From NCBI RefSeq assembly GCF_041381155.1, contig NC_091147.1, positions 36,980,553-37,044,552 on the forward strand: DNA of 64,000 nt. The letters are read 5' to 3'. The notes beneath the pieces were generated by a model. It had not been told where the DNA came from. It did not search any database and saw only the letters and a list, made by a program, of their open reading frames with translations. The position numbers were made by a program, and so were the translations under genes. Of this stretch, positions 6,301 to 47,643 are shown piece after piece (the first letter of the stretch is position 1; each line of letters starts with the position of its first letter). Origin of the DNA: Argopecten irradians (taxonomy: Eukaryota; Mollusca; Bivalvia; Pectinida; Pectinidae).

Positions 6301-6392
6301 TCGTGGTCTATATAACTAGTTCATATGACAGCGGTTGTCTTGTGAAATCGTGGTCTATATAACTAGTTCACATGACAACGGTTGTCTAGGGA
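3309..6392. repeat. 47-bp satellite array, about 65 copies
   Basis: Tandem copies of a 47-bp unit fill 3.1 kb. Each unit carries two dyads: GACAACGGTTGTC (6-bp arms around one base) and AACTAGTT. Most units read 'atcgtggtc', while runs of units at about 5100-5370 and 5960-6230 read 'atcgtgatc', showing local homogenisation of a variant. Units at 3820-4080 are riddled with small deletions. No frame is coding. Confidence 0.97.
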
Positions 6393-7794
6393 CAAAAATG
6401 AAAACGTTCCTAGTTTCGTAAAAAAAATGGCGAGGTGATCCGATTGTGTGCCCGGCATTACATAAATCCTCATTAGGTGTTATACGATGTAGTTCAGGTA
6501 CTGATTACAGTTTTTTTCTTCTTTCTTTTATCTATAATGAGCAGATACACCACGCTCATAAAAACAAATAAAAATCATAAATTTATTTTGTTTTTGATAT
6601 TTCTTCTTACAATGCTACAGAATATGTTTACTGATTTATTAATGTCCTTTCATAACAAAACTAAAGTGACATCATAAAATTTCTTGTATACAATTCTTTC
6701 CAAAATCAAATTTAACAAAATAAGTTAGTGTAGTAATTTTCATAATAACGAAAGTTACTATAAATGTCGATCGTGACGTGTTGGCGAAGAAATGACACCC
6801 ATTAAAGACACTGTATGGTCGTGTAATTGATCGTGTAGAACAGATATTTCTGGTAGAACAATTCATTTCTACTTTGAGATATCTACGACGGTATGATGTT
6901 TGAGGGAAATGATTATATACATAGTATTTTTGGCTTGAAAACTGATAATTGGAATAATTACTTTGACATTTCACCTCGCTGTGATTAGCAGTAATAGCCT
7001 TCCTATTCGAAGATACGATTCACACATCTTTAGTGGAGGAATATTAATGATGGTGGTAATTGCCATGCATATATAAACATGTATATATATATGTTGGCTC
7101 TGGAAACAAAGAGCGCTGAATTTTAATAAGTCAAAACTAAGTCTGTATGCTAAAAATAAACCTATTGAGATTGATTACATTTACATCTATATGTAAATGA
7201 TAAGGTTAACTCGGAAGTCGTATAACTCGAATGTCTAATTGTTGCGACACCAAACGTTTTCCGCATATTCCAAGTACATTCTACCATCATTATCCTACCG
7301 ATCTCGAGTTAACAAAGATTGATCTAAGTTCATTTGATCACAGGAAGTTATATAATCCGTGAGTTTACATTTTTATAATATTGCCAAATGTCAAGCATAC
7401 ACTGTACATGGTACAAATGATGTTTACATAAAATCTCAAAATCTCTTTAAATGTGAAGATGTATATAAACATGCCTACTGCCAAAATCCAGTTTGAAAGG
7501 TCTTCACTTATTTCTTTTGCTTTGTTGAAAATAAACTGTCTGAAAACATCAATTGGCAGTGTCTCATAGATTGTTTAGCGATCTTCAAAAGTATAGTAAA
7601 AGGGACGGTTATCTCCCTTTAGCCATTGCTCCAACTTCAGACGGATCGGAGTGAAGCGCGTTATAAGGCTTGCAAAATGAAAATTTCTTAAGACTCGTTT
7701 CAAAAGTACACGTGACATTGATGAACGAGACACTTCTGAGTCTACAATTCAGTATCTGATGTACATTGTATTACCTAAATCACACAATGGTAAA
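6393..7794. other. Non-coding AT-rich stretch
   Basis: The open frames at 6477-6677 (plus) and 6672-6974 (minus) are 66 and 100 codons. They have low-complexity compositions, no family resemblance and no usable splice sites. I see no gene here. Confidence 0.45.
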
Positions 7795-13383: not shown

Positions 13384-16300
13384 CTGAAAATGAAAATATT
13401 AGATATTAGTTTTGGTTAAATTCTGATAGGAACAACAACAAAGGACCTTGCGGTAGATTAGCCTTTGGCTAAGCATGTTATCCTCTTAGAATAAAATTTT
13501 ATTATTTTTATTTCAATATTAAATTATTTCTGCAGGGATATTTTTTTACAAGGTCGTGAAATATAATAAAACTAACTTGTGTTGAACACCTAGCTTGAAT
13601 CAGATGAGTGAAATGTTTTGTCAGGTCTGGAGTTTTGCTCCTCTTAAACACAGTTGATTCATACAAGGTAGAATCAAATACTGTGGTTATGTGTTAAATA
13701 GGTTTCTTTGTCCAGCGTTTATAAGATATACAAATTACCATTCTTGTATTATACATTGAGGCATCATGCTGTCTCGGGTAAAACAACATCAGTCATTTTA
13801 ACAAACTTTAACGTTGTTCTTTATCCAAGCATGTCATGGCCAATATCAGGTCTATAGACATCCTAGTTATTAACAAGTGATTTAAAGGTTTTAGTCTATT
13901 TGAGCCATGTGACTTTAAATGAAGGTCAAGGCCATTCATTTGAACAAACTTTGTAGCCCTTCATCCCAGCACACTTTAATAGGCCCAATATAGGATCTCT
14001 AAGCCTTCTTTTGGAGAATATGTTGTTTAAAGAGGAACAATGTTTGCCATACTGATGCCCATCACTCGCTGCATGCATATCATAGTCACTAGCCCTTTTT
14101 ATATATAATCGCAAAATTAAAAAAAAAAAATCAAAATAAAAAAAAAATCTTGAAATTTAGCATGATTATCCAGGTAAGAAACCTGTTTACTAGTCATTAC
14201 AAAATGTATTGTTTTTTTACTGGCAAATCTCAAATAGATTCCTGTACAATTAGAACACTGATCTTCTTACCCTAAAATCATTCTCCAGTCTATTCTTGTG
14301 GTCCAGTTCCTTCAGATACTTCTTCTCCAGAATATCATACCTGGGAAAATATGAAAGTCAGAATATCATACCTTGGGAAATACAATATACCAGAATATCA
14401 TACCTTTGGGAAATATAATATACCAGAATATCATACCTTGGGAAATATAATATACCAGAATATCATACCTTGGGAAATATAATATACCAGAATATCATAC
14501 CTTGGGGAAATATAATATACCAGAATATCATACCTTGGGAAATATAATATACCAGAATATCATACCTTGGGAAATATAATATACCAGAATATCATACCTT
14601 TGGAAAATATAATATACCAGAATATCATACCTTGGGAAATATAATATACCAGAATATCATACCTTGGGAAATACAATATACCAGAATATCATACCTTGGG
14701 AAATATAATATACCAGAATATCATACCTTTGGAAAATATAATATACCAGAATATCATACCTTGGGAAATATAATATACCAGAATATCATACCTTGGAAAA
14801 TATAATATACCAGAATATCATACCTTGGGAAAAATATAATATACCAGAATATCATACCTTGGGAAATATAATATACCAGAATATCATACCTTGGGAAATA
14901 TAATATACCAGAATATAATATACCAGAATATCATACCTTGGGAAATATAATATACCAGAATATCATACCTTGGAAAATATAATATACCAGAATATCATAC
15001 CTTGGGAAATATAATATACCAGAATATCATACCTTGGGAAATATAATATACCAGAATATCATACCTTGGGAAATATAATATACCAGAATATCATACCTTG
15101 GGAAATATAATATACCAGAATATCATACCTTTGGGAAATATAATATACCAGAATATCATACCTTGGGAAATATAATATACCAGAATATCATACCTTGGAA
15201 AATATAATATACCAGAATATCATACCTTGGGAAATATAATATACCAGAATATCATACCTTGGGAAATAATATATACCAGAATATCATACCTTGGGAAATA
15301 TATATACCAGAATATCATACCTAGGGAAAAATATAATATACCAGAATATCATACCTTGGGAAATATAATATACCAGAATATCATACCTTGGGAAATATAA
15401 TATACCAGAATATCATACCTTGGGAAATATAATATACCAGAATATCATACCTTGGGAAATATAATATACCAGAATATCATACCTTGGGAAATATAATATA
15501 CCAGAATATCATACCTTGGGAAATATAATATACCAGAATATCATACCTTGGGAAAATATAATATACCAGAATATCATACCTTGGGAAATATAATATACCA
15601 GAATATCATACCTTGGGAAATATAATATACCAGAATATCATACCTTGGGAAATATAATATACCAGAATATCATACCTTGGGAAATATAATATACCAGAAT
15701 ATCATACCTTGGGAAATATAATATACCAGAATATCATACCTTGGGAAATATAATATACCAGAATATCATACCTTGGGAAATATAATATACCAGAATATCA
15801 TACCTTGGGAAATATAATATACCAGAATATCATACCTTGGGAAATATAATATACCAGAATATCATACCTTGGGAAATATAATATACCAGAATATCATACC
15901 TTGGGAAAAATAATATAATATACCAGAATATCATACCTTGGGAAATATAATATACCAGAATATCATACCTTGGAAATATAATATACCAGAATATCATACC
16001 TTGGGAAATATAATATACCAGAATATCATACCTTGGAAATAAAATACGAATATATACCAGAAATAAATTATATACCAGAATATCATACCTTGGGAAATAT
16101 AATATACCAGAATATCATACCTTGGGAAATATAATATACCAGAATATCATACCTTGGGAAATATAATATACCAGAATATCATACCTTGGGAAATATAATA
16201 TACCAGAATATCATACCTTGGAAAATATAATATACCAGAATATCATATCTTGGGAAATATAATATACTAGAATATCATATCTTGGGAAATATAATATACC

Positions 16301-19300
16301 AGAATATCATACCTTGGAAAATATAATATACCAGAATATCATATCTTGGGAAATATAATATACCAGAATATCATACCTTGGGAAATATTATATACCAGAA
16401 TATCATACCTTGGGAAATATAATATACCAGAATATCATACCTTGGGAAATATAATATACCAGAATATCATACCTTTGGGAAATATAATATACCAGAATAT
16501 CATACCTTTGGAAAATATAATATACCAGAATATCATACCTTGGGAAATATAATATACCAGAATATCATACCTTGGGAAATATAATATACCAGAATATCAT
16601 ACCTTGGGAAATATAATATACCAGAATATCATACCTTGGGAAATATAATATACCAGAATATCATACCTTGGGAAATATAATATACCAGAATATCATACCT
16701 TGGGAAATATAATATACCAGAATATCATACCTTGGGAAATATAATATACCAGAATATCATACCTTGGGAAATATAATATACCAGAATATCATACCTTGGG
16801 AAATATAATATACCAGAATATCATACCTTGGAAATATAATATACCGGGAATATAATATGGAATATAATATACCAGAATATCATACCTTGGGAAATATAAT
16901 ATACCAGAATATCATACCTTGGGAAATATAATATACCAGAATATCATACCTTGGGAAATATAATATACCAGAATATCATACCTTGGGAAATATAATATAC
17001 CAGAATATCATACCTGGGAAATATAATATACCAGAATATCATACCTTGGGAAATATAATATACCAGAATATCATACCTTGGGAAATATAATATACCAGAA
17101 TATCATACCTTGGGAAATATAATATACCAGAATATCATACCTTGGGAAATATAATATACCAGAATATCATACCTTGGGAAATATAATATACCAGAATATC
17201 ATACCTTGGGAAATATAATATACCAGAATATCATACCTTGGGAAATATACCAGATATATACCATTGAAAATATACCGAATATCATACCTTGGGAAATATA
17301 ATATACCAGAATATCATACCTTGGGAAATATAATATACCAGAATATCATACCTTGGGAAATATAATATACCAGAATATCATACCTTGGGAAATATAATAT
17401 ACCAGAAATATCATACCTTGGGAAATATAATATACCAGAATATCATACCTTGGGAAATATAATATACCAGAATATCATACCTTGGGAAATATAATATACC
17501 AGAATATCATACCTTGGGAAATATAATATACCAGAATATCATACCTTGGGAAATATAATATACCAGAATATCATACCTTGGGAAAATATAATATACCAGA
17601 ATATCATACTTGGGAAATATAATATACCAGAATATCATACCTTGGGAAATATAATATACCAGAATATCATACCTTGGGAAATATAATATACCAGAATATC
17701 ATACCTTGGGAAATATAATATACCAGAATATCATACCTTGGGAAATATAATATACCAGAATATCATACCTTGGGAAATATAATATACCAGAATATCATAC
17801 CTTGGGAAATATAATATACCAGAATATCATACCTTGGGAAATATAATATACCAGAATATCATACCTTGGAAATATAATATACCAGAATATCATACCTTTG
17901 GGAAATACAATATACCAGAATATCATACCTTGGGAAATATAATATACCAGAATATCATACCTTGGGAAATATAATATACCAGAATATCATACCTTGGGAA
18001 ATATAATATACCAGAATATCATACCTTGGGAAATATAATATACCAGAATATCATACCTTGGGAAATATAATATACCAGAATATCATACCTTGGGAAATAT
18101 AATATACCAATAATATCATACCTTTGGGAAATATAATATACCAGAATATCATACCTTGGGAAAATAAAATTATACCAGAATATCATACCTTGGGAAATAT
18201 AATATACCAGAATATCATACCTTGGGAAATATAATATACCAGAATATATACCTTGGGAAATATAATATACCAGAATATCATACCTTGGGAAATATAATAT
18301 ACCAGAATATCATACCTTGGGAAATATAATATACCAGAATATCATACCTTGGAAAATATAATATACCAGAATATCATACCTTGGGAAATATAATATACCA
18401 GAATATCATACCTTGGGAAATATAATATACCAGAATATCATACCTTGGGAAATATAATATACCAGAATATCATACCTTGGGAAAATATAATATACCAGAA
18501 TATAATATACATACCTTGGGAAATATAATATACCAGAATATCATACCTTGGGAAATATAATATACCAGAATATCATACCTTGGGAAATATAATATACCAG
18601 AATATCATACCTTGGGAAATATAATATACCAGAATATCATACCTTGGGAAATATAATATACCAGAATATCATACCTTGGAAAAATATATATATACCAGAA
18701 TATCATACCTTGGGAAATATAATATACCAGAATATCATACCTTGGGAAATATAATATACCAGAATATCATACCTTGGGAAATATATAATATACCAGAATA
18801 TCATACCTTGGGAAATATAATATACCAGAATATCATACCTTGGGAAATATATAATATACCAGAATATCATACCTTGGGAAATATAATATACCAGAATATC
18901 ATACCTTGGGAAATATACAATATACCAGAATATCATACCTTGGGAAATATAATATACCAGAATATCATACCTTGGGAAATATAATATACCAGAATATCAT
19001 ACCTTGGGAAATATAATATACCAGAATATCATACCTTGGGAAATATAATATACCAGAATATCATACCTTGGGAAATAAATATACCAGAATATCATACCTT
19101 GGGAAAATAATATACCAGAATATCATATATTGGGAAATATAATATACCAGAATATCATACCTTTGGGAAATACAATATACCAGAATATCATACCTTGGGA
19201 AATATAATATACCAGAATATCATACCTTGGGAAATATAATATACCAGAATATCATACCTTGGGAAATATTATAATATACCAGAATATCATACCTTGGGAA

Positions 19301-22300
19301 ATAATTATAATATACCAGAATATCATACCTTGGGAAATATAATATACCAGAATATCATACCTTGGGAAATATAATATACCAGAATATCATACCTTGGGAA
19401 ATATAATATACCAGAATATCATACCTTGGGAAAATATAATATACCAGAATATCATACCTTGGGAAATATAATATACCAGAATATCATACCTTTGGAAATA
19501 TAATATACCAGAATATCATACCTTGGGAAAAATATAATATACCAGAATATCATATCTTGGGAAATATAATATACCAGAATATCATACCTTGGGAAATATA
19601 ATATACCAGAATATCATACCTTGGGAAATATAATATACCAGAATATCATACCTTGGGAAATATAATATACCAGAATATCATACCTTGGGAAATATAATAT
19701 ACCAGAATATCATACCTTGGGAAATAAATATACCAGAATATCATACCTTGGGAAATATAAAATATACCAGAATATCATACCTTGGGAAATATAATATACC
19801 AGAATATCATACCTTGGGAAATATAATATACCAGAATATCATACCTTGGGAAATATAATATACCAGAATATCATACCTTGGGAAATATAATATACCAGAA
19901 TATCATACCTTGGGAAATATAATATACCAGAATATCATACCTTGGGAAATATAATATACCAGAATATCATACCTTGGGAAATATAATATACCAGAATATC
20001 ATACCTTGGGAAATAAAATATACCAGAATATCATACCTTGGGGAAATATAATATACAGAATATCATACCAGAATATCATACCTTGGGAAATATAAATATA
20101 CCAGAATATCATACCTTGGGAAATATAATATACCAGAATATCATACCTTGGGAAATATATAATATACCAGAATATCATACCTTGGGAAATATAATATACC
20201 AGAATATCATACCTTGGGAAATATAATATACCAGAATATCATACCTTGGGAAATATAATATACCAGAATATCATACCTTGGAAAATATAATATACCAGAA
20301 TATCATACCTTGGGAAATATAATATACCAGAATATCATACCTTGGGAAATACAATATATACCAGAATATCATACCTTGGGAAATATAATATACCAGAATA
20401 TCATACCTTGGGAAATATAATATACCAGAATATCATACCTTGAAAATATAATATACCAGAATATCATACCTTGGGAAATATAATATACCAGAATATCATA
20501 CCTTGGGAAATATAATATACCAGAATATCATACCTTGTGGAAATATAATATACCAGAATATATATACCTTGGGAAAATATAATATACTAGAATATCATAC
20601 CTTGGAAATATAATATACCAGAATATCATACCTTGGGAAATATAATATACCAGAATATCATACCTTGGGAAATATAATATACCAGAATATCATACCTTGG
20701 GAAATATAATATACCAGAATATCATACCTTGGGAAATATAATATACCAGAATATCATTTACCTTTGGTCGAAATATAATATACCAGAATATCATACCTTG
20801 GGAATATATATATACCAGAATATCATACCTTGGAAATATAATATACCAGAATATCATACCTTGGGAAATATAATATACCAGAATATCATACCTTGGGAAA
20901 TATAATATTACCAGAATATCATACCAGAATATTAATTATACCAAAAATATGGCATAATATACCAGAATATCATATACCTTGGGAAATATTAATATACCTA
21001 GGAATATCATACCTTGGAAAAATATAATATACCAGAATATCATACCTTGCGGAAATATAATATATACCAGAATATCATACCTTGGGAAATATAATATACC
21101 AGAATATCATACCTTGGGAAATATAATATACCAGAATATCATACCTTGGGAAATATAATATACCAGAATATCATACTTGGGAAATATATATATACCAGAA
21201 TATCATACCTTGGGAAATATAATATACCAGAATATCATACCTTGGGAAAATATAATATACCAGAATATCATACCTTGGAAATATAATATACCAGAAAATA
21301 TCATACCTTGGTAAAATATAATATACCAGAATATCATACCTTGGGAAATATAATATACCAGAATATCATACCTTGGGAAATATAATATACCAGAATATCA
21401 TACCTTGGGAAAATATTAATATACCAGAATATCATACCTTTGGGAAATATAATATACCAGAATATCATACCTTGGGAATATAATAATATACAAGAATATC
21501 ATACCTTGGAAAAAATATAATATACCAGAATATCATACTTGGGAAATATACTTATACCAGAATATCATACCTTGGGAAAATATAATATACCAGAATATCA
21601 TACCTTTTGGGAAATATAATATACCAGAATATCAATACCTTGGGAAATATAATATACCAGAATATCATACTACTTGGGAAAATTCTTATATATCATTACC
21701 TTGGGAATATATGAATTATACCAGAATATCATACCTTGGGAAATATAATATACCAGAATATCATACCTTGGGAAATATAATATACCAGAATATCATACCT
21801 TTGGGAAATATAATATACCAGAATATCATACCTTCGGGAAATATATATATACCAGAATATCATACCTTGGGAAATATAATATACCAGAATATCATACCTT
21901 CGGAAATATAATATACCAGAATATCATACCTTGGGAAATATAATATACCAGAATATCATACCTTGGGAAAATATAATATACCAGAATATCATACCTTGGG
22001 AAATATAATATACCAGAATATCATACCTTGGGAAATATAATATACCAGAATATCAAAAAAAAAAAATACCTTTGAGAAATAAAAATATACCAGAATATCA
22101 TACCTTGGGAAATATAATATACCAGAATATCATACCTTGGGAAATATAATATACCAGAATATCATACCTTTGGAAATATAATATACCAGAATATCATACC
22201 TTGGGAAATATAATATACCAGAATATCATACCTTGGGAAATATAATATACCAGAATATCATACCTTGGAAATATATAAATATACCAGAATATCATACCTT

Positions 22301-25300
22301 GGGAAATATAATATACCAGAATATCATACCTTGGGAAATATTAAATACCAGAATATCATACCTGGAAAATATAATATACCAGAATATCATACCTTGGGAA
22401 ATATAATATACCAGAATATCATACCTTGGGAAAATAAAATATACCAGAATATCATACCTTGGGGAAATATAATATACCAGAATATCATACCTTGGGAAAT
22501 ATAATATACCAGAATATCATACCTTGGGAAATATAATATACCAGAATATCATACCTTGGGAAATATAATATACCAGAATATCATACCTTGGGAAATATAA
22601 TATACCAGAATATCATACCTTGGGAAATATAATATACCAGAATATCATACCTTGGGAAATATAATATACCAGAATATCATATCTTGGGAAATATAATATA
22701 CCAGAATATCATACCTTGGGAAATATAATATACCAGAAATATCATACCTTGGGAAATATAATATACCAGAATATCATACCTTGGGAAATATAATATACCA
22801 GAATATCATACCTTGGGGAAATATAATATACCAGAATATCATACCTTGGGAAATATAATATACCAGAATATCATACCTTGGGAAATATAATATACCAGAA
22901 TATCATACCTTGGGAAATATAATAATATACCAGAATATCATACCTTGGGAAATATAATATACCAGAATATCATACCTTGGGAAATACAATATACCAGGAA
23001 TATCATACCTTGGGAAATATAATATACCAGAATATCATACCTTGGGAAATATTATATACCAGAATATCATACCTTGGGAAATATAATATACCAGAATATC
23101 ATACCTTGGGAAATATAATATACCAGAATATCATACCTTGGGAAATACAATATATACCAGAATATCATACCTTGGGAAATATAATATACCAGAATATCAT
23201 ACCTTGGGAAATATAATATACCAGAATATCATACCTTGGGAATATAATATACCAGAATATCATACCTTGGAAATATAATATACCAGAATATCATACCTTG
23301 GGAAATATAATATACCAGAATATCATACCTTGGGAAATATAATATACCAGAATATCATACCTTGGGAAATATAATATACCAGAATATCATACCTTGGGAA
23401 ATATAATATACCAGAATATCATACCTTGGGAAATATAATATACCAGAATATCATACCTTGGGAAATATAATATACCAGAATATCATACCTTGGGAAATAT
23501 AATATACCAGAATATCATACCTTGGGAAATATAATATACCAGAATATCATACCTTGGGAAATATAATATACCAGAATATCATACCTTGGGAAATATAATA
23601 TACCAGAATATCATATGGGGAAATATAATATACCAGAATATCATACCTTTGGGAAATATAATATACCAGAATATCATACCTTGGGAAATATAATTATACC
23701 AGAATATCATACCTTGGGAAATATAATATACCAGAATATCATATTGGAAATATAATATACCAGAATATCATACCTTGGGAAATATAATATACCAGAATAT
23801 CATATGGGAAAATATACCAGAATATCATACCTTGGGAAATATAATATACCAGAATATCATACCTTGGAAAATATAATATACCAGAATATCATACCTTGGG
23901 AAAATATAATATACCAGAATATCATACCTTGGGAAATATAATATACCAGAATATCATACCTTGGGAAATATTATATACCAGAATATCATACCTTGGGAAA
24001 TATAAATACAGAAATATCATACCTTGGGAAATTAATATACCAGAATATCATACCTTGGGAAATATAATATACCAGAATATCATACCTTGGGAAATAATAT
24101 ACCAGAATATCATACCTTGGGAAATATAATATACCAGAATATATCATACCTTGGGAAATAAATATACCAGAATATCATACCTTGGGAAAATTTATATACC
24201 AGAATATCATACCTTGGGAAATATAATATACCAGAATATCATACCTTGGAGAAATATAATATACCAGAATATCATACCTTGGGAAATATAATATACCAGA
24301 ATATCATACCTTGGGAAATATTATATACCAGAATATCATACTTGGGAAAATTAATATACCAGAATATCATACCTTGGGAAATATTAATATACCAGAATAT
24401 CATACCTTTGAGGAAATATAATATACCAGAATATCATAACCTTGGGGAAATCATTAATATACCAGAATATCATACCTTGGGAAATATATATAATATACCA
24501 GAATATCATACCTTGGGAAATATAATATACCAGGAATATCATACCTTGGGAAATATAATATACCAGAATATCATACCTTGGGAAATATAATATACCAGAA
24601 TATCATACCTTGGGAAATATAATATACCAGAATATCATACCTTGGGAAATATAATATACCAGAATATCATACCTTTGGGAAATATAATATACCAGAATAT
24701 CATACCTTGGGAAATATAATATACCAGAATATCATACCTTGGGAAATATAATATACCAGAATATCATACCTTGGGAAATATAATATCAGAATACCAGAAT
24801 AAATATACCAGAATATCATACCTTGGGAAATATAATATACCAGAATATCATACCTTGGGAAATATTAATATACCAAATATCATACCTTGGAAAATAATAT
24901 ATACCAGAATATCATACCTTGGAAATATAATATACCAGAATATCATACCTTGGAAAATAATATACCAGAATATCATACCTTGGGAAATATAATATACCAG
25001 AATATCATACCTTGGGGAATATACCAGAATATCATACTTGGGAGAATATAATATACCAGAATATCATACCTTGGGAAATATAATATACCAGAATATCATA
25101 CCTTGGGAAATATAATATACCAGAATATCATACCTTGGGAAATATAATATACCAGAATATCATACCTTTGGAAAATATAATATACCAGAATATCATACCT
25201 TGGGAAATATAATATACCAGAATATCATACCTTGGGAAATATAATATACCAGAATATCATACCTTGGGAAATATAATATACCAGAATATCATACCTTGGG

Positions 25301-28300
25301 AAATATAATATACCAGAATATCATACCTTGGGAAATATAATATACCAGAATATCATACCTTGGGAAATATAATATACCAGAATATCATACCTTGGGAAAA
25401 TATAATATACCAGAATATCATACCTTGGAAAAATATAATATACCAGAATATCATACCTTGGGAAATATAATATACCAGAATATCATACCTTGGGAAATAT
25501 AATATACCAGAATATCATACCTTGGGAAATATAATATACCAGAATATCATACCTTGGGAAAAATATAATATACCAGAATATCATACCTTGGGAAATATAA
25601 TATACCAGAATATCATACCTTGGGAAAATATAATATACCAGAATATCATACCTTGGGAAATATAATATACCAGAATATCATACCTTGGGAAATATAATAT
25701 ACCAGAATATCATACCTTGGGAAATATAATATACCAGAATATCATACCTTGGGAAATATAATATACCAGAATATCATACCTTGGGAAATATAATATACCA
25801 GAATATCATACCTTGGGAAATATTATATACCAGAATATCATACCTTGGGAAATATAATATACCAGAATATCATACCTTGGGAAATATAATATACCAGAAT
25901 ATCATACCTTGGGAAATATAATATACCAGAATATCATACCTTGGGAAAATATAATATACCAGAATATCATACCTTGGGAAATATAATATACCAGAATATC
26001 ATACCTTGGGAAATATAATATACCAGAATATCATACCTTGGGAAATACCAGAATATCATACCTTGAATATAATATACCAGAATATCATACCTTGGGAAAT
26101 ATAATATACCAGAATATCATACCTTGGGAAATATAATATACCAGAATATCATACCTTGGGAAATATAAATATACCAGAATATCATCATACCTTGGGAAAT
26201 ATAATATACCAGAATATCATACCTTGGGAAATATAATATACCAGAATATCATACCTTGGGAAATATAATATACCAGAATATCATACCTTGGGAAATATAA
26301 TATACCAGAATATCATACCTTGGGAAATATAATATACCAGAATATCATACCTTGGGAAATATAATATACCAGAATATCATACCTTGGGAAATATAATATA
26401 CCAGAATATCATACCTTGGGAAATATAATATACCAGAATATCATACCTTGGGAAATATAATATACCAGAATATCATACCTTGGGAAATATAATATACCAG
26501 AATATCATACCTTGGGAAATATAATATACCAGAATATCATACCTTGGGAAATATAATATACCAGAATATCATACCTTGGGAAATATAATATACCAGAATA
26601 TCATACCTTGGGAAATAATTATAATATACCAGAATATCATACCTTGGGAAATATAATATACCAGAATATCATACCTTGGGAAATATAATATACCAGAATA
26701 TCATACCTTGGGAAATATAATATACCAGAATATCATACCTTGGGAAATATAATATACCAGAATATCATACCTTGGGAAATATAATATACCAGAATATCAT
26801 ACCTTGGGAAATATAATATACCAGAATATCATACCTTGGGAAAATAATATATACCAGAATATCATACCTTGGGAAATATAATATACCAGAATATCATACC
26901 TTGGGAAATATAATATACCAGAATATCATACCTTGGGAAATATAATATACCAGAATATCATACCTTGGGAAATATAATATACCAGAATATCATACCTTGG
27001 GAAATATAATATACCAGAATATCATACCTTGGGAAATATAATATACCAGAATATCATACCTTGGGAAATATAATATACCAGAATATCATACCTTGGGAAA
27101 ATATAATATACCAGAATATCATACCTTGGGAAATATAATATACCAGAATATCATACCTTGGGAAATATAATATACCAGAATATCATACCTTGGGAAATAT
27201 AATATACCAGAATATCATATCTTGGGAAATATAATATACCAGAATATCATACCTTGGGAAATATAATATACCAGAATATCATACCTTGGGAAATATAATA
27301 TACCAGAATATCATACCTTGGGAAATATAATATACCAGAATATCATACCTTGGGAAATATAATATACCAGAATATCATACCTTGGGAAATATAATATACC
27401 AGAATATCATACCTTGGGAAATATAATATACCAGAATATCATACCTTGGGAAAAATAATATACCAGAATATCATATCTTGGGAAATATAATATACCAGAA
27501 TATATATATCATACCTTGGGAAATATAATATACCAGAATATCATACCTTGGGAAATATAATATACCAGAATATCATACCTTGGGAAATATAATATACCAG
27601 AATATCATACCTTGGGAAATATAATATACCAGAATATCATACCTTGGGAAATATAATATACCAGAATATCATACCTTGGGAAATATAATATACCAGAATA
27701 TCATACCTTGGGAAATACAATATACCAGAATATCATACCTTGGGAAATATAATATACCAGAATATCATACCTTGGGAAATATAATATACCAGAATATCAT
27801 ACCTTGGGAAAATAATATACCAGAATATCATACCTTGGGAAATATAATATACCAGAATATCATACCTTGGGAAATATAATATACCAGAATATCATACCTT
27901 GGGAAATATAATATACCAGAATATCATACCTTGGGAAATATAATATACCAGAATATCATACCTTGGGAAATATAATATACCAGAATATCATACCTTGGGA
28001 AATATAATATACCAGAATATCATACCTTGGGAAATATAATATACCAGAATATCATACCTTGGGAAATATAATATACCAGAATATCATACCTTTGGGAAAT
28101 ATAATATACCAGAATATCATAAATATAATATACCAGAATATCATACCTTTGGAAAATATAATATACCAGAATATCATACCTTGGGAAATATAATATACCA
28201 GAATATCATACCTTGGGAAATATAATATACCAGAATATCATACCTTGGGAAATATAATATACCAGAATATCATACCTTGGGAAATATAATATACCAGAAT

Positions 28301-31300
28301 ATCATACCTTGGGAAATATAATATACCAGAATATCATACCTTGGGAAAATATAATATACCAGAATATCATACCTTGGGAAATATAATATACCAGAATATC
28401 ATACCTTGGGAAATATAATATACCAGAATATCATACCTTGGAAATATAATATATACCAGAATATCATACCTTGGGAAAATATAATATACCAGAATATCAT
28501 ACCTTTGGAAAATAATATACCAGAATATATAATATACCAGAATATCATATCTTTGGAAAATAATATACCAGAATATATAATATACCAGAATATCATACCT
28601 TTGGAAAATAATATACCAGAATATATAATATACCAGAATATCATACCTTTGGAAAATAATATACCAGAATATATAATATACCAGAATATCATACCTTTGG
28701 AAATAATATACCAGAATATATAATTACCAGAATATCATACCTTTGGAATATAATACCAGAATATATATTATATACCTGAATATTATTGGTCCTTTATTCC
28801 GATCCTTATTCAACAATTTATACTGTTCATTTCTGATGTGTTAGATTTTATCTAGACCAACAAAACATATCAATCCTTCGCCTAAATTTACTGTAGTACT
28901 CTGTCCAATATCGGTAATATACAGTAGTATTGTATGGTAAACATATTGGTTAATTCCTTTGCTCGGTTAAATGCCATTATAATCCCATTTTGTACTGGAA
29001 GTATATACATTAAGGTGATAATCCTCTTAACATGGATTAATTCAGTGTCATGTAACACCTAGAATAATATGTTTATTTAATTTATTGAACAGAAAAACGG
29101 TTAAGTTCCTGTACCAATATGAGCAGTAGGTAAACATAGTAGTACACCCCACAAAACTATCTTAGGTACCAACACCTTTCAAAACCATCTAAGGTACTGA
29201 CACCCTACAAAACTATCTAAGGTACCAACACCCTACAAAAACCATCTAAGGTACCAGACACCCTACAAAACTATCTAAGGTACCAACACCCTACAAAACT
29301 ATCTAAGGTACAGACACCCTACAAAACTATCTAAGGTACTACACCCTACAAAACTATCTAAGGTACTGACACCCTACAAAACTAATAAGGTACCTGACAC
29401 CCTACAAAACTATCTAAGGTACCGACACCCTACAAAACTATCTAAGGTACCGACACCCTACAAAACTATCTAAGGTACCGACACCCTACAAAACCATCTA
29501 AGGTACAGACACCCTACAAAACTATCTAAGGTACTGACACCCTACAAAACTATCTAAGGTACCAACACCCTACAAAACTATCTAAGGTACCAACACCCTA
29601 CAAAACTATCTAAGGTACCAACACCCTACAAAACTATCTAAGGTACCAACACCCTACAAAACCATCTAAGGTACCGACACCCTACAAAACTATCTAAGGT
29701 ACCAACACCCTACAAAACTATCTAAGGTACCGACACCCTACAAAACCATCTAAGGTACCGACACCCCTACAAAACTATCTAAGGTACCGACACCCTACAA
29801 AACTATCTAAGGTACCGACACCCTACAAAACTATCTAAGGTACCGACACCCTACAAAACTATCTAAGGTACAGACACCCTACAAAACTATCTAAGGTACC
29901 GACACCCTACAAAACCATCTAAGGTACTGACACCCTACAAAACTATCTGAGGTACCGACACCCTACAAAAAAACCGAAGGTACAGACACCCTACAAAACT
30001 ATCTAAGGTACCGACACCCTACAAAACTATCTAAGGTACCGACACCCTACAAAACTATCTAAGGTACCGACACCCTACAAAACTATCTAAGGTACCGACA
30101 CCCTACAAAACTATCTAAGGTACCACACCCTACAAAACTATCTAAGGTACCGACACCCTACAAAACTATCTAAGGTACGAACCCTACAAATATCCTAAAA
30201 AACTATCTAGGTACCGACACCCTACAAAACTATCTAAAGTACCGACACCCTACAAAACTATCTAAGGTACCGACACCCTACAAAACTATCTGAGGTACCG
30301 ACACCCTACAAAACTATCTAAGGTACCGACACCCTACAAAAACTATCTAAGGTACAGACACCCTACAAAACTATCTAAGGTACCGACACCCTACAAAACT
30401 ATCTAAGGTACAGACACCCTACAAAACTATCTAAGGTACCGACACCCTACAAAACTATCTAAGGTACCGACACCCTACAAAACCATCTAAGGTACCGACA
30501 CCCTACAAAACTATCTAAGGTACCGACACCCTACAAAACCATCTAAGGTACCGACACCCTACAAAACTATCTAAGGTACCGACACCCTACAAAACTATCT
30601 AAGGTACCGACACCCTACAAAACCATCTAAGGTACCGACACCCTACAAAACTATCTAAGGTACCGACACCCTACAAAACTATCTAAGGTACCGACACCCT
30701 ACAAAACTATCTAAGGTACCGCGACACCCTACAAAACTATCTAAGGTACCGACACCCTACAAAACTATCTAAGGTACCGACACCCTACAAAACTATCTAA
30801 GGTACCGACACCCTACAAAACCATCTAAGGTACCGACACCCTACAAAACTATCTAAGGTACCGACACCCTACAAAACCATCTATACACCTAAGGTACCGA
30901 CACCCTACTACAAAACTATCTAAGGTACCGACACCCTACAAAACCATCTAAGGTACCGACACCCTACAAAACTATCTAAGGTACCGACACCCCCTAAAAC
31001 CTATCTAAGGTACCGACACCTACAAAACATCTAAACACACCATCACTACAGGTACACACCCTACAAAACCATCTAAGGTACCGACACCCTACAAAACTAT
31101 CTAAGGTACCGACACCCTACAAAACTATCTAAGGTACCGACACCCTACAAAACCATCTAAGGTACGACACCCTACAAAACCATCTAAGGTACCGACACCC
31201 TACAAAACCATCTAAGGTACCGACACCCTACAAAACTATCTAAGGTACCAACACCCTACAAAACCATCTAAGGTACTGACACCCTACAAAACTATCTAAG

Positions 31301-34300
31301 GTACAGACACCCTACAAAACTATCTAAGGTACTGACACCCTACAAAACTATCTAAGGTACTGACACCCTACAAAACTATCTAAGGTACTGACACCCTACA
31401 AAACTATCTAAGGTACTGACACCCTACAAAACCATCTAAGGTACCGACACCCTACAAAACTATCTAAGGTACCGACACCCTACAAAACTATCTAAGGTAC
31501 CGACACCCTACAAAACCATCTAAGGTACAGACACCCTACAAAACTATCTAAGGTACTGACACCCTACAAAACTATCTAAGGTACAGACACCCTACAAAAC
31601 TATCTAAGGTACCGACACCCTACAAAACTATCTAAGGTACAGACACCCTACAAAACCATCTAAGGTACCGACACCCTACAAAACTATCTAAGGTACCGAC
31701 ACCCTACAAAACCATCTGAGGTACCAACAATCTACAAAACCATCAGAGGTACCTCTAATGTCATATTCAATATGGTCATTGCCTTCTGTGTTGTGTTTGT
31801 AAAAAGGTCAAAATCTAAGATGCCATTTGTGGCAGATCCCTTCAATACATTCTGAGATATAGCAGGAACAAGAATTATAAATTGAAGGATGGACGGAAGA
31901 ACAAGCGGACAGCAGACCATGAATAAAAGGCAATTTGAATTAGAATAGCCCATCATCTGAGAGCAGTCTAGAAAGACATCTTGACATATAAATTTACACT
32001 TAAAATCATTTTAAAAAGACTTTAAATTGCAAGCTCCTTATTAGCCTCAAACACTGTAAATGTACTTATTTTAGGGCATTTCAATTTTAGCGCTAATGCA
32101 AAAAAACTGTAAATTATGATTTATTAGCATGGACATAAATTTGCGCAATTATGTGGTTCATTACTTGAAATATTCTTTTACAAAATTTAGCTCTATGTAT
32201 GAATCTGGGTTTCAAAACAGTGTAGAAAGGGCTTATATAAAATTACCACTAAAACAAATTCCGTATTCAACCTTATAAGTGCCCATGTCCATATAAGCTC
32301 CCCTCCCTTTTTTGAGGCCTCATTTCAATTGCCTGGTCATAAGACCACAACTATCAAAACTGTATAAGTTTGCAACAATTTTGTCTAATAAGTGCTTTTC
32401 ATTGTTTCAATTTTTTTAAACACCCTGGGTGCTTATTGTGTGAAATAAGGTATATACAGTACGTTAAGGATGGTCTCCTTACTTGTGATTTAACCGGTCG
32501 ACTTCAGCCTGGTGTATCTTTGCTACCCTCATGGCTTCCTTCTTTGCTAACTCTTCACATTCCTTTATCGTTCTAGCTATTGTTTCTTGCTCTCGTTTAA
32601 GAAATCTCTCCTGAAAAATAAAGAAAAGGGATGCAATGTATGGTTCTCTGACTCCTTCCGGTATTTGTAGGAGCGTATGACAGGATTAGTCCTAACGTCA
32701 TTATAAGGACATGCCATTTTAGAAGGAAAGTCTGAGATGGAGAAAAACCAACTATCAGCAGTCAGTACCTGGGAACTGACCGACATAGGATTTGAACGAA
32801 CAACCCAGAAGTAGAGGGTTTGCAGTAATATGTCTGGACATATTAATACTCGGCCACTGCAGCTCGCCCCCTATTTCATAGAACGGGATTTGCCTCAGGG
32901 TTTCGGCTGGGTGCTCCATAAATTGGGTCCTCCTCAAATAAAATGGGGTCCCCTATTGAATGTAATTGGAATGGAATTCCAGGAAGAAAGGTGGTGTACA
33001 TTTTGATTTCCTAAGCTTAAAAATGATATGGGGATGGCTTAAATGCAAACCACGAACATGATATTAATTGTATACAGTTGTATCTCAAAGGTCCAAGATG
33101 ATATGAAATTTCCCAAGAATTCCTCTTAACTACTAAACTCGGATATCTACAGGTGTATGTCATGACTATCAAAAAATAGTCTGAATAACTACATTTCCAT
33201 AATTATCTCAAAGGTTATAAAAAAAAAATTGTAACCACCTTAGTCAGCTATCCAATAATCATCCATTCACCCCTGAAACACATTTAGGCACTTCTAAATC
33301 AAAGGCTAGATCAGTCCATTATGAAATTTCAAGGGTGACTGAGTTAACAGAACATTAGTATGGATGAGAAGGTGTTAAAACACACATAACTTAGAATATA
33401 AAGGTAACTGCAATTTAGAAAGAAATGTAAAAGTTAAAATTGCTAACCTTCTGTTCCTTTAATGCTGCAGCTATTGCCCGTTCCTTCTCTAACGTAAAGT
33501 CAAGTCGAAGTTTCCGTGTGAGTGCTTGACACGCTTCCTGTATGGCAATCTCCTTGAGTCGTTCACACTCTTCCCATTGTTCTCTCAGAGCTAATTCTTT
33601 CTCTCCATCCAGTTGTTTTGTTAGTTCTCTCTTCCTTTCTTCCTCCGCTGCATCTCTTTGCTCCTCAATTCTCTTAGCAAGTCGTTCATAATACTATAAT
33701 ATCAATATTTTACATATTGAAAATGTGATGTGATTGTTCATTCCCAAATCTCATACATACTTATATCATTTATTACTGAATATGGTGGTTTACCAACTAC
33801 AGCTAGGCCACCAAATATTTGTACGACTTGATAAGCAAAGTGAAATTGAGAAGGGACACTAAGCACTTTATGCAAAATGTAGAATTTTCACAAGATTATC
33901 ACACAATGTTAGCTGCAAATCCACAACATAATTATATATTACATAATGTAGAATTCATAATTATCATAATACAGATTTGTATTCAAAGTATGTGAACTTG
34001 AGACCTTCTATAATGGGAGGGTGCTTATTGGAATAGGGTAACTTATTGGGTCATGTGTACTTATAAGGACAGAAATGCTTATTGTCATGGGTTAGGGATG
34101 CTTACTGGGTTGAACATAGCCCGAGATACTCTGGCCCTGACAACAGACTTAGACATTATGGCAGATAGATGTCTGGTTTAGGGCCAGAGCGCAGTAGAAC
34201 TCGAAAACCTGGAATAAGCCGACACCGTTTGGTATCGGGTCAGGTACTCTCCGATTCAGACTACTTACAAAATATAACCACCGAGAATCGCCACTTACCT

Positions 34301-37300
34301 TGGTCTTTTCAACAAATGAATAATTTATCTACTCATAGCCATCCATTTCATCACGCATGCACGTTCTATTGTGTCAACACAGTAGTTTCTTTTCCTCAAC
34401 TTTAAATTTCCCTCGTCGTCGTTGCCATTTTCTCGTAGTATGCAAATCATCTTTGATATCGACAGATTGCTATATTTGGGTAGATATGATATCCATTTGT
34501 TGAATAGACTAAGGTTAGTGGTGCTTCTCGGTGGTCAGGCTAAATCGGAGATGACCTGGTCCGATACCAAACGGTGTCAGCTTATTCCAGGTTTTCGAGT
34601 ACTACTGCGCTCTGGCCCTAAACCAGACATCTATCTGTCATAATGTCTAAGTCTGGTGTCAGGGCCAGAGTATCTCGGGCTAGGTTGAACAATAAAACAA
34701 TGTAGTAGTATCTGAAGCTACATGTATGGCCACAAGCCAATAAATGTAAATATTGGCTTTCTAAGTTTCAGAAAATAATAGAAATGACTACCTTTGGTCT
34801 CAAGCCCCTGTGTATTACAGAACTTACTTGAGCATGCAACATTATGTTTTATCACTGAATATAAAGTTGAAATATTACAAAATATGTGAAGATGTAGACA
34901 AATCAACTAGTATTTGAATTTACATTGTGTTTCATAGTACAAGCTTACCTCTTGTTGTAATTGTAAAGCATTGCGCTTCTCCGCATCTTTTGAGTTTCGA
35001 AGCCTCTTTATGGCAGCACGGAGTTCTCTGGTAGCTCTTGCCTCAGCTGCATCGAGAGCCAACTGTAATTCTCTTTCTCTTTCCTCCTTAGAGTTGTCTG
35101 CTCGATTGTTTAGAAGGTAATCCCCAAGTTCTAAAATATTAAATTATGCATATTGACAGATCCTCAAAATTTACACAGCCAATTTCTGAGTACCTGAGGT
35201 CAAGGAATCTGAGGTATGATTTTATTTGTTGACCTGAAAATTATTCTCCTCTAATGGGGAATTTTAAACTATCCAAGGATATTGGATTCCTGAAAGATCA
35301 TGAAACTGCAGACTTAAGTCTAAAACAGTCATGTTTAAAGTTCTATACTTAGTCAGTCACGACTGGTGATATATAAAGCTTGTAACTTTTTGGCTTTGTC
35401 CAAAAAATATTTGCAATTCTGGAATTTGAACCTTCTTAACAGGATGTAAGCTCCTAATTAAATTAACTTATTCACCCCTGAAAATTCATAATGAACTTTT
35501 CTAGCCTTAGAATTAGAAAAGTTCAAATGTGTCTTCAGGGGTGAACGAGTCAAATGACAATTTCTAATTACACACTCATCAATGCACTTACCCTTTTTTC
35601 CCCTAAGGACATTGGCACTAAGTGGACGTCTGAACTTGGACAATATACCTGATTGTCCATAGACAACACTATCGGAATCACTTGTGCTAGTGGTTCTCAT
35701 TGTCAGTACACAGAGTAAAACATTAAATACACCGAAAACGTTTTGAGTGAAACTTGTAGCATGATACCACCAACCTCACCACTAAAACGCTGTAGTTCAA
35801 CCCTAACGATTCATCAGCTTTCTTTCAAACTCATGTGACAGATAATTCATGGGACAACGTTCAATTCAATAGATGTTTTAATATAAATTTGAAAATTCAT
35901 AATATTAATAAATGTGCCTTTAATCAATCTTCAGTTTGTTCTTTCATTATAATGTAAAACATATACTTTTATGGCTTACTAATCACTTTAACTAAAATGG
36001 ATTAGTTTCAGAAGTTGACAATACTTGTATTATGATGTTTTTCTCCCCCCTCTCCATGACTCCGGGTTACAGATAATATTCACCCACACACACCTTCTGT
36101 GTGTATAGGGTACCCTATAATACAGCACCTTAATAAATCATTAGTATCAGATAGGTAACTGCAATACAATATACAGGTTGTTTATGGAAAGGACTGTCGC
36201 TAAAGACCAGACATCACTGCATGATTATTTGCAGTAAACATATACAAGGTATTTCGTATATAGCACAGATTTTTCAACTTTATCATGTGCTTTTATATAA
36301 AATCTGATGTCCCAAAATGGAACTATTTTGGAAGGAAGAAAAAAATAATTGGTGCAAAGAAAACAAAATAAGTATGGCAGAAATTTATGATAATTAACAA
36401 AAATATGCAGAAATATATGCCATTTGACCGAGTATTGGTCAGTTGAATCAACATTTTAATTTCGAGCCTTTGGCCAAAATGAAATGATTACTATATGTAC
36501 TTTATGAATTAAGATCACAAAGATTATAAATTGAAGCTGACCATGAAGTTTGTTGGATTTTAATACACTTTTAGGGAAAACAATTACCACATCATTATTG
36601 AACAGCAACGTTGGGAGACCCTGTTGTATAGCATGAGAATTTATTGAGAATATTCTTTTGATACATAACTTCATGTGATTTAGGCCATGACCTTACAGTT
36701 GTCGAAGAAACAATATCATCATGTAGAATAACAGGAGAAAATTATAACACATGACTCATGTCAAGTGCCCTGACTAGCTAGGTATCAAACCGGGATCTCC
36801 AGTGCGAAAAACTATAATTTAACACTACACTTTATATGAACTAGCCACACCAAAACGCTTCTTTTACACTTACAATACATTTTCATTTCTACATCAACAT
36901 TGATCAAAATCTGTAATGGAATAGTATAACTACACACAAATACCTCCACACAAATGTACATACATGTTAAACACGCTTCTACAATGTATTTAGTATACAG
37001 TAGTAATTTATTTACATTTCACACAATGACATTTGAATAGAAATCCATCCACTATTTACTTTCTTTGATACAGGCCTACAATGAATCTTGATTTTGATAA
37101 CATGCTGTAAACTTTTAAAGGGACCCTTTCCATGTACACAATCTCGCTTTAGTTCAACTGTTGATAAGATTTATTCACATTTTATTGTTGAAAATACCGA
37201 TAGTTCATAAATTCTAATCAGCTAACGTGTCAATACAATTCAAAGGTTAGTAAGTAAATTAAATGACCCAATAACAGTTGATTCTTTGATTGAAAAGCCC

Positions 37301-37463
37301 AGTATCTTAGCTCTTATCAAGTGGGGTTTCAACAGTTCAAGGGGCACTCACCAACAATTTGCCGGTGCGCTACTCGTTGTGTTGATAGCGTTGTTTTGTT
37401 TAACATTCGTTCAATGGTTTCATGTGGATTTACTGGATTTTTCGACGTAGAAGGTCGCGACAT
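13207..37463 (-). CDS. Gene 1: coiled-coil protein, possibly C6orf163-like (spliced)
   Basis: The joined exons are 37352-37463 (1a) or 35592-35700 (1b), then 34949-35130, 33448-33693, 32483-32610, 14271-14340 and 13207-13383. All junctions are GT-AG and all phases agree, giving 304 residues with exon 1a and 303 with 1b. Residues from about 40 to 250 are rich in E, K, R, Q and A with heptad-like spacing and no proline, so they should form long coiled coils. The C-terminal exon is compact and contains the segment RRFMNYTDGKF. The length and the tail recall vertebrate C6orf163, an uncharacterised coiled-coil protein, but that link is from memory and is tentative. There is no signal peptide or membrane segment. 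Intron 4 (18.1 kb) is almost entirely satellite DNA. The molecular role is unknown. Confidence 0.85.
13858..13985 (+). repeat. Dispersed repeat with AGGTCA-like half sites, copy 2
   Basis: Lies within intron 5 of gene 1 and shows the core 'tttaaatgaaggtcaaggcc', then 'cttcatcccagcacact'. The preceding segment 'tttaaaggttttagtctatt' also matches other copies. Confidence 0.7.
14271..14340 (-). CDS. Gene 1 exon 5 (70 bp, abuts the 32-bp satellite)
   Basis: A short exon (residues 223-246) that completes the AA|G lysine codon and encodes KYDILEKKYLKELDHKNRL through NDFR. The acceptor is 'catattttcccag' with CTGAC 14 nt further upstream, and the donor is GTAAGA. Its first 14 nt (GTATGATATTCTGG) and the bases before the splice site are the same sequence that is repeated about 450 times in the adjoining intron. 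Confidence 0.85.
14341..28790. repeat. 32-bp satellite array derived from the exon 5 splice acceptor, about 450 copies
   Basis: A 14.4-kb array fills most of gene 1 intron 4 and ends exactly at the exon 5 boundary. On the + strand each unit contains CCAGAATATCATAC, identical to the first 14 nt of exon 5 in inverse, followed by CTTGGG and an AT-rich part. Units vary mainly by 1-2-bp indels in the A runs. At the distal end (about 28500-28790) the period changes to about 48 bp. Because 32 is not a multiple of 3, all three frames are sampled and open runs of up to 114 codons arise by chance on both strands; none is a gene. Confidence 0.97.
28791..29138. other. Unique spacer between the two intron 4 satellites
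   Basis: About 350 bp of AT-rich, non-repetitive intron sequence separates the 32-bp and 28-bp arrays. No exon or element is recognised. Confidence 0.6.
29139..31745. repeat. 28-bp satellite array with GGTACC in each unit, about 93 copies
   Basis: A 2.6-kb tandem array whose unit includes 'ctatctaaggtaccgacacc'. The KpnI palindrome GGTACC is present in most units. Two variable sites stand out: ctatc/ccatc, and the two bases before 'acac' read ccg, cca, cag or ctg. The ends (29139-29400 and 31250-31745) are richer in ctg/cag/cca variants, while the centre is nearly uniform ccg, a pattern of central homogenisation. It is unrelated in sequence to the 32-bp array in the same intron. Confidence 0.96.
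31746..31960 (+). repeat. Fragment of dispersed 'gatcccttcaatacattctg' repeat
   Basis: The words 'cagatcccttcaatacattc' and 'gagatatagcaggaacaaga', and the end 'gcaatttgaattagaatagc', correspond to the family at 11150-11500 and its usual 3' end. The minus-strand open frame here is not a gene. Confidence 0.5.
32259..32453. mobile_element. Short MITE of the 'ccgtattt' type
   Basis: The left end 'ttccgtattcaaccttataa' and the right end 'gtgaaataaggtata' are imperfect inverses, with internal 'ataagtgccc' and 'gggtgcttat' also opposed. It lies in intron 4 close to exon 4. Confidence 0.45.
32483..32610 (-). CDS. Gene 1 exon 4
   Basis: 128 bp, residues 181-222 plus two bases. It encodes ERFLKREQETIARTIKECEE and continues as coiled coil to DRLNH. 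The acceptor is 'tatttttcag' and the donor is GTAAGG. This is the 5' flank of the 18-kb satellite-filled intron 4. Confidence 0.88.
33448..33693 (-). CDS. Gene 1 exon 3
   Basis: 246 bp (82 codons, phase 0 at both ends), residues 99-180. It encodes an uninterrupted helix from YYERLAKRIEEQRDAAEEER through EQWEECERLKEIAIQEA. The acceptor is 'gatattatag' and the donor GTTAGC is non-optimal. Loss of this symmetrical exon would keep the frame. Confidence 0.88.
34117..34682. mobile_element. Mutator-like non-autonomous element with 9-bp target duplication
   Basis: A 566-bp element in gene 1 intron 2, starting TAGCCCGAGATACTCTGGCC and ending with the inverse. The inverted arms run for about 140 bp each. 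It is flanked by a perfect 9-bp direct repeat GGTTGAACA (34108-34116 and 34683-34691). Long arms with 9-bp duplications are the hallmark of MULE-type elements. The two 70-80-codon open frames inside come from the arms. No transposase is present. Confidence 0.88.
34949..35130 (-). CDS. Gene 1 exon 2
   Basis: 182 bp, acceptor 'aatattttag' and donor GTAAGC, residues 38-98 in the 1a isoform. It encodes ELGDYLLNN followed by a charged helix that includes EERERELQLALDAAEARATR, strongly coiled-coil-like. It is shared by both start exons. Confidence 0.88.
35592..35700 (-). CDS. Gene 1 exon 1b (alternative start exon)
   Basis: ATG at 35698-35700 in the context GACAATGA opens 36 codons beginning MRTTSTSDSDSVVYGQSG. 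One base before a strong GTAAGT donor gives the same phase as exon 1a, so it joins exon 2 equally well. No acceptor upstream keeps this frame after exon 1a: the only nearby AGs give the wrong phase. An internal promoter is the simplest explanation. The serine/threonine-rich N-terminus differs from that of 1a. Confidence 0.65.
35701..37351. other. Intron between the two start exons of gene 1, with probable internal promoter
   Basis: AT-rich sequence with no further exon. The first few hundred bases upstream of 35700 should hold the promoter and 5' UTR of the 1b transcript, but I see no clear TATA or initiator that singles out a start. Confidence 0.4.
37352..37463 (-). CDS. Gene 1 exon 1a (start exon, distal promoter)
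   Basis: ATG at 37461-37463 in the good context CAAAATGT. It encodes 37 codons beginning MSRPSTSKNPVNPHETIERM and one further base before a strong donor GTGAGT. With exon 2 this base makes a GAA codon and leads into ELGDYLLNN. The N-terminus is short, polar and proline-containing, unlike the coiled coil that follows. Confidence 0.85.
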
Positions 37464-37570
37464 TTTGATCCTGTCTTGATAAATATAATTGAACAACACA
37501 TCAGTTTGGCTTCAGTCAACTCTCCTTCCTCGATTGTAACCGGAAGTTTACGGTTGCTTAGCTCTGTTCG
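37464..37570 (-). promoter_or_regulatory. Gene 1 upstream promoter region
   Basis: The + strand holds ACCGGAAGT (37539-37547), a perfect ETS-family site, about 80 bp from the ATG. It is followed by GTTGCTTAGC, which resembles the left part of an RFX X-box. The position suits a TATA-less promoter. The X-box resemblance is partial. Confidence 0.4.
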
Positions 37571-39024: not shown

Positions 39025-39583
39025 TTACTTTTTGACTATAGATTGCCAAACCCCCCCTACATGTTTCTTAGACACATACACCGACTGGTTCTCCAGCAAT
39101 TTACCAGGTTCAGGTACATGTGCCAAGTCCTTAAGGTCCAAGAATGCCAGGCTGGACATCCTGTCGGAGTCCGACAAATGACCACAACTTTCTGAGTTTG
39201 TAGACATAGCTTGATCCTCGTGAGCTTGTAATATACTAATTTCACGTTCTACACATCGTTTCACATTTTCTGACATTGTTTGTTGAATTCTCTTCTTTGT
39301 CACATCAAACGTGTCTAAGAAAAGATTTTTGGTCTTCACCGTCTTTTTTGATGCATCATTATCTTTCACATTCTTATAAACATGCTTTGTATTCCTTTTT
39401 GTTTTTACTTTAGAAGTTGCCGCTTGCACTGATTTTCCTGCCTTATCAGATTTACCACTCTTTGGTTTGTTTTTGTTTACTGTAGCCCTCCGGCTTCCCT
39501 TCACTGAATTATTTACACACTTCCCAGAACTCTGTGAATTGGAGCTCTTATCGTTGTTTGCTTCACTTGATCGTTTCTTACAA
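39025..39583 (-). CDS. Gene 2 last coding exon
   Basis: 559 bp, acceptor 'ttgttttcag', residues 578-763 and stop TAG. It begins SCKKRSSEANNDKSSNSQSS, passes through a long lysine-rich region and ends VGGVWQSIVKK. The helical segment around REISILQAHEDQAM and the SDSDRMSSLAFLDLKDL motif look conserved-like, with alternating acidic and hydrophobic residues. Confidence 0.88.
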
Positions 39584-43253: not shown

Positions 43254-43439
43254 GATTTCTGAAAGAAAGAAAAAATGTCATTACACTTTAACATGTACTG
43301 GTATTGTATACATTGAATAGAACTTTAGCTAAAATCTTTTTTGTCAACTATGCATATTTTCAAATGTTTCTGTTAATAGGATTGTTTCATGTAAGTTTCA
43401 GCTAAATCGCACTGGTAGAACTTGAGAAGAAGTATAAAA

Positions 43440-46060: not shown

Positions 46061-46141
46061 AGGGTTAATCATTTGTGTGTTGTTGGGTCGTTTGCTCGTC
46101 TGTAGGGAGTCTTTAATCATATTTTCTAAGTAAGAATATAA

Positions 46142-46290
46142 GACTCTTTCATATGTGGATATGAAGGATAGGGATATTCTACCCGAGGGTCACAAAATGT
46201 AGTAAAACCCGAGGCTTGCGAGGGTTTTGCAACATTTTGTGACCCCGGGGGTAGAATATCCCTATCCTTCATATCCACTTATGAAAGAGT
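46142..46290. mobile_element. Foldback hairpin element
   Basis: Two arms of about 68 bp are nearly perfect inverses: 'gatatgaaggatagggatat' on the left, its inverse on the right. They are joined by a loop around 'gaggcttgcga'. The next element begins 4 bp downstream. Confidence 0.85.
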
Positions 46291-46293
46291 ATT

Positions 46294-46636
46294 TTTCTTT
46301 CATACCTCAACGTTTTATTGAAATTTTACAACTAAAATATCCCGCCATTTTGAAATAAATTCGATGAAATCCACGACTGGAAGTCGTTTTCCCATACAAG
46401 AAAAATTACACGATACTTTCAACACAAATTCCGTTGTTTGCATCTTTTAGAGTAAAATTAAATCAGTCATATTTGTGAAAAAAAAAATGTTAAAATTTTA
46501 CCGAGGAAATAGAGATTTTGTTGACGCCGTGACGTCACGAGGCTTTATTGCATGGGTAGCCATGCAATACAGCCTCAGGCGACATGAGTGTATTGCCCTG
46601 GACCAGCCAGTATTACACATGTAGGTATGAAAGAAA
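46294..46636. mobile_element. MITE with 14-bp perfect ends TTTCTTTCATACCT
   Basis: 343 bp bounded by TTTCTTTCATACCT and its perfect inverse (46623-46636). The interior includes a small hairpin 'gcatgggtagccatgc' and no coding frame. The ATGAAAGA motif is also at the edge of the adjacent hairpin, so the two may be parts of one composite element. Confidence 0.7.
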
Positions 46637-47547: not shown

Positions 47548-47643
47548 CTTGGCTCGTACAAAGAAGAAAGCTGTTTAGCATATATGGAATAAATAGGAAT
47601 GCCATAAAACGTTTAAACAAATACATCAGTTTCAAATAATTAC

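Follow-up and report, generated by a model that had tools for sequence, protein, structure and literature searches.

Minisatellites built of tandem repeats that span an intron-exon boundary have been described in amphioxus as "mirages", in Adh3, in the globin genes BflGb6 and BflGb9 and in troponin C, with similar repeats in PGBD5 (PMC3087553, PMC3902484). In these reports, mirage units measure 10-72 bp in Adh3, the 150-160 bp units of BflGb6 number 6 and 3, and length variation is described along with RT-PCR experiments on splicing (PMC3087553, PMC3902484). The boundaries of mirage clusters are described as more diverged, the boundary units escaping homogenisation (PMC3087553). Tandem repeats with an average unit of 30 bp and about 4 copies occur in human duplicated genes, some of them at exon-intron boundaries (PMC2812944), and in the potato RdRp gene an intron was gained via a tandem duplication across an intron-exon boundary (PMC4974935). 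Intron 3 of an abalone TSSK1-like gene contains a polymorphic minisatellite with a 27-bp unit, which the figure legend gives as repeated "62 times" (PMC6905558). The first-pass annotation of the locus presented here stated that no satellite originating from a splice acceptor had been described; the published amphioxus mirages and human boundary repeats show this statement to be wrong.

The scallop array joins the mirage kind, and what is new is its occurrence in another phylum, the molluscs, and its very large size. It resembles BflGb6 in that the 3' end of an intron is repeated together with the 5' part of the following exon, and it resembles mirages in general in having many units with AG/GT signals (AGGT occurs 422 times in the array) and edge units that escape homogenisation. 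Unlike those mirages, it lies in a mollusc rather than a cephalochordate and has about 450 units as opposed to the 6 and 3 of BflGb6. With the human boundary repeats it shares a minisatellite-sized unit, but those repeats can form novel introns, whereas the scallop array lies inside an existing one. The potato RdRp case likewise involves a duplication across a 3' splice site; there, a single extra copy with CAG, a pyrimidine tract and a putative branch site led to a new intron, whereas the scallop units carry AAG and no CTRAY, and the protein model of the gene contains no new exon. The abalone minisatellite shares the location in a mollusc intron, but the available part of that report does not mention a link to a splice site. 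No mollusc mirage was found among the titles returned by a literature search, which is no proof of absence from the literature. The locus thereby extends boundary-derived minisatellites to a mollusc, in which 14.4 kb of an 18.1-kb intron are occupied.

The window, that is, the whole stretch of 64 kb that was analysed, contains a coiled-coil gene on the minus strand. When exons 2-6 were joined and prefixed with one G for the split first codon, they translated to a stretch within P0001, "calponin homology domain-containing protein DDB_G0272472-like isoform X2 [Argopecten irradians]", which a protein search with these exons returned at 100% identity over the 260 residues given; the window accordingly comes from the bay scallop or from a very close relative. 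All introns between exons 2 and 6 are GT-AG, and the NCBI protein model P0001 predicts splicing of exon 4 onto the authentic edge of exon 5. The sole Pfam match was sub-threshold (E 0.061), and a search of PDB by sequence gave no match. An open frame at 37329-37511 (MSRPSTS...RVAHRQIV) is similar to the initial exon seen in other scallop relatives (P0002 and P0004); P0001 uses a different first exon, in the open frame 35458-35775. The parts of the gene around the array are as follows, with a slash marking splice sites here and below.

32483..32610, minus strand: exon 4, 128 nt, 3' end ...AATCACAA
14341..32482, minus strand: intron 4, 18,142 nt, donor CACAA/GTAAGG, acceptor CCCAG/GTATGA
14271..14340, minus strand: exon 5, 70 nt, starting with GTATGATATTCTGG and coding for (K)YDILEKKYLKELDHKNRLENDFR, its translation lying within P0001
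13207..13383, minus strand: exon 6 through the stop codon, from the joined-exon model

About 94% of intron 4 is tandem repeat, namely the 32-bp array up to 28783 and a 28-bp array at 29144-31753.

14327..14358, minus strand: terminal unit and probable founder, 18 intronic nt carrying the real CAG/ acceptor and then 14 nt of exon 5
14359..28480, minus strand: homogeneous 32-bp array, unit TATATTATATTTCCCAAG/GTATGATATTCTGG, low divergence, AAG/ in most copies
28481..28783, minus strand: degraded far edge with 48-bp compound units, 25% edits over 303 nt, a 48-bp row in TRF
29144..31753, minus strand: second minisatellite of intron 4, 28-bp unit CCTACAAAACTATCTAAGGTACCGACAC, unrelated to the 32-bp array

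The 32-bp array (14327-28783) comprises about 450 copies arranged head to tail over 14.4 kb of intron 4, each reading TATATTATATTTCCCAAG/GTATGATATTCTGG on the transcript strand. TRF reports a period of 32 with 18.4 + 430.6 copies in two overlapping rows covering 14327-28719, and the degraded 48-bp variants of a further row continue the array to 28783. The copy number of about 450 given in the first pass is matched by these values and by the 450 units, exon copy counted, that were cut when the anchor was allowed 3 edits; the array itself was also correctly recognised at exon 5, but its far edge lies at about 28783 and not at 28790. Exact matches to the 14-mer CCAGAATATCATAC number 403 on the plus strand, as compared with about 0.0004 occurrences expected by chance in 64 kb, and 430 copies match at no more than 2 substitutions, the exon copy being counted in both cases. 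Outside 14327-28790, and on the opposite strand of the window, the 14-mer is absent.

The terminal copy reads ACTTTCATATTTTCCCAG/GTATGATATTCTGG, where the slash is the real splice site. It differs from the consensus unit at 0/14 exonic and 6/18 intronic bases (Fisher p 0.024) and is in register with the array, as the next unit starts 31-32 bp off. When the unit was compared by BLAST with the window after masking of the arrays, it matched 14327-14352 (26 bp, 92%, E 7e-5), and elsewhere in the window only a single 12-bp match was obtained (E 0.27). Furthermore, a 24-mer spanning the exon 5 acceptor has 350 matching places at up to 4 substitutions; the stop end and the remaining 8 splice edges examined, all from exons 2-6, have no match other than themselves. 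The ungapped identity of 12/18 in the intronic part was equalled by 35 of 2,220 control 18-mers ending in AG and by 175 of 20,000 shuffles. That the repeat covers the acceptor of exon 5 and meets the exon without a gap, as had been noted from the letters alone, is thus borne out by identical exonic bases, by units in register and by an array that ends exactly on the 3' splice site; the accompanying description of the unit as the exon start continued by the intron is exact for the 14 exonic bases and holds for 12/18 positions in the intronic part. As in mirages, the units hold intronic and exonic bases of one boundary, and the array adjoins the authentic boundary, with the exon 5 edge as its terminal unit. 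From the sequence, the array is read as a mirage-type minisatellite that originated at the splice acceptor of exon 5, with a probability of roughly 85%.

The interior of the array (14391-28480) deviates from the consensus by 0.65% substitutions and 2.4% indels (3.0% in total), corresponding to 92 substitutions and 335 indels. This excess of indels suggests uncorrected long-read error; the array is therefore possibly more uniform than it appears and its length is uncertain, and the copy number and the variants may in part reflect errors of the long-read consensus. The same resemblance to long-read error is what speaks for an assembly artefact, but the expectation of 0.0004 for the 14-mer, the register of the units with the exon and the presence of two distinct edges make an artefact, or a chance resemblance, a negligible explanation for the array as a whole. 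Towards the edges, edits increase to 12.5% at the exon end and 25% at the far end, as compared with 3.0% in the interior, so that the edges of this cluster, too, appear to escape homogenisation. The units nearest the exon had been expected to be closest to it in sequence, and this expectation fails: no gradient of similarity towards the exon is seen among 428 of the 449 non-terminal units, those 28-37 nt long (Spearman 0.03, p 0.48). Diverged edges together with an absent gradient are what is expected from unequal exchange with the edges excluded. Local waves of amplification are not visible, because variant sharing between units amounts to only 0-5% at the 11 lags examined from 1 to 100. Lower variation in the exon-derived columns was considered and rejected as too weak (Mann-Whitney p 0.03 for counts and 0.08 for kinds of change, in a test that shared variants inflate). 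RNA structure in the array was likewise discarded: a 256-nt piece reaches a z of -3.0 against shuffled sequence, yet periodic controls undercut the claim, as 25 of 200 shuffled units, when repeated periodically, give folds as good as or better than that of the repeated consensus.

The direction of derivation is indicated by the protein encoded at the exon edge. An alignment of 25 of the 32 protein matches (P0001 and 24 relatives) reveals residues that are largely kept not only across molluscs, gastropods as well as other bivalves, but also in an annelid and a brachiopod. At residue 1, K or R is found in 25/25; residue 2 is Y in 23/25 and residue 5 is L in 22/25, followed by E in 17/25; residue 3 is D in 14/25 and residue 4 is variable. 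The string KYDIL is identical in Lingula (brachiopod) and Littorina (snail), and the exceptions are RYLDM in the oyster-type proteins P0008 and P0015 and RCSVV in one Nucella copy (P0031). As proposed in the first-pass annotation, the founder is most likely the exon, since its edge residues are for the most part conserved beyond the scallops; the exon 5 edge would then be older than the array, which would derive from it. At residue 4 this scallop has Ile (ATT), whereas Ylistrum and Pecten carry Val and Mizuhopecten carries Gly; the ATT codon is found in 430/430 copies matched at up to 2 substitutions, exon counted. Since this codon is uniform in these copies but absent from the three other scallops, the array is probably young, and the simplest reading is that it arose after Ile had become fixed in the Argopecten line. 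Ile at residue 4 also occurs in distant relatives, which makes the polarity of this residue a matter of inference. The same Ile codon, common to exon and array and absent from the three other scallops, would also fit some conversion of the exon by the array, which is possible, and is thereby the point in favour of the reverse history, in which a pre-existing satellite from elsewhere was inserted at, or converted into, the exon edge and the exon captured satellite sequence. Such a capture is improbable: conservation in gastropods, other bivalves, the brachiopod and the annelid extends to most residues that the shared 14 nt encode, and an independent satellite would need to match them by coincidence. 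The viral and prokaryote collections, from which entries of the genome that contains the window may be missing, hold no exact copy of the unit, which is expected for a scallop sequence and says little about scallops.

If the array does derive from the exon edge, the 32-bp unit would have arisen when a short piece straddling the 3' splice site of intron 4 was duplicated in tandem; about 26 bp of the unit show clear homology (14 bp from the exon, about 12 from the intron), and about 6 bp are other sequence. Slippage or unequal exchange would then have amplified this unit to about 450 copies within the intron, while the exon edge, as the terminal unit, would have been held back from drift by protein coding and excluded from homogenisation. 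The unit that was amplified would be a weakened acceptor, with CCCAAG/ in place of CCCAG/ and with CTGGT between array units where the real acceptor is preceded by the branch-point-like CTGAC. AAG is a poor acceptor, and CTRAY is a branch-point consensus, although this may not be the consensus of the scallop. AAG/ precedes GTATG in 407 of 430 copies and CAG/ in 3, the true site among them; in the acceptors of exons 2-6 (n=5), AAG is found in none. CTRAY is missing from the consensus unit; across the 14.4 kb it is found 2 times, as opposed to 53 times expected from composition, and one of these occurrences, at -18, is the following motif.

14357..14361, minus strand: CTGAC, branch-point-like motif whose A (14358) lies 18 nt upstream of exon 5

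This CTGAC, the only one in 14341-28783, spans the junction of the terminal unit with the next one, where CTGGT is found between array units. It may not be the real branch point, because a CTRAY is expected by chance in a 26-nt stretch with P 0.09, none lies within 60 nt of the acceptors of exons 2, 3 and 4, and the looser YTNAY, although missing from the consensus unit, is found 32 times in the array region. That splicing still uses the real acceptor owing to the weakness of the array units (AAG/, no CTRAY) is a prediction with about even odds of being right. Use of any of the 402 exact pseudo-acceptors in intron 4 would bring the reading frame to a stop within the array, short of exon 5 (median stop at codon 65, counted from the start of exon 4), and selection for the true site is therefore expected. 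The intron thus offers a natural test of how the spliceosome chooses one acceptor among more than 400 look-alikes spaced 32 nt apart, and a simple reason why such arrays are tolerated could be that the unit which spread was a weakened acceptor.

A different use of the units would be a recursive-splicing ladder of about 400 steps, in which nearly every one of them serves as a zero-length exon (AG/GTATG) and wrong choices are re-spliced until exon 5 is reached. In fact, the array contains AGGTATG 412 times, each an acceptor directly followed by a donor as in a recursive site, and joining the intron 4 donor (CACAA/GTAAGG) to a unit would produce CACAA/GTATGA, which is again donor-like. If true, an intron would tolerate unlimited multiplication of its own acceptor. 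Such a ladder is nevertheless improbable, since AG/GT would simply have been copied from the exon edge and needs no selection, and since units with AAG/ and lacking CTRAY would, by the general rule, be poor acceptors for recursive steps as well.

Four other arrays accompany the splice-site array in the window; the 28-bp minisatellite is among them, and a founder copy of its unit was not found within the window. The 64-bp array at 58145-60511 has a plus-strand unit containing, by eye, an acceptor-like TTTCATTCTTTACCCACGCAG/TCTACTAAAG, and it, too, lacks a founder copy elsewhere in the window. Searches of the window for founders of these four arrays gave matches of 12-13 bp for two (E at least 0.14) and none for the other two. 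A 47-bp array with the inverted repeat ACAAC-G-GTTGT lies at 3310-6394, on the downstream side of the gene and about 7 kb from its stop codon. Upstream of the gene, at 39025-43277, there are long minus-strand open frames of 193, 136 and 471 aa, for the last of which a Pfam search at E up to 1 gave no match. Minus-strand open frames at 44658-48569 resemble, by eye, pieces of a reverse transcriptase.
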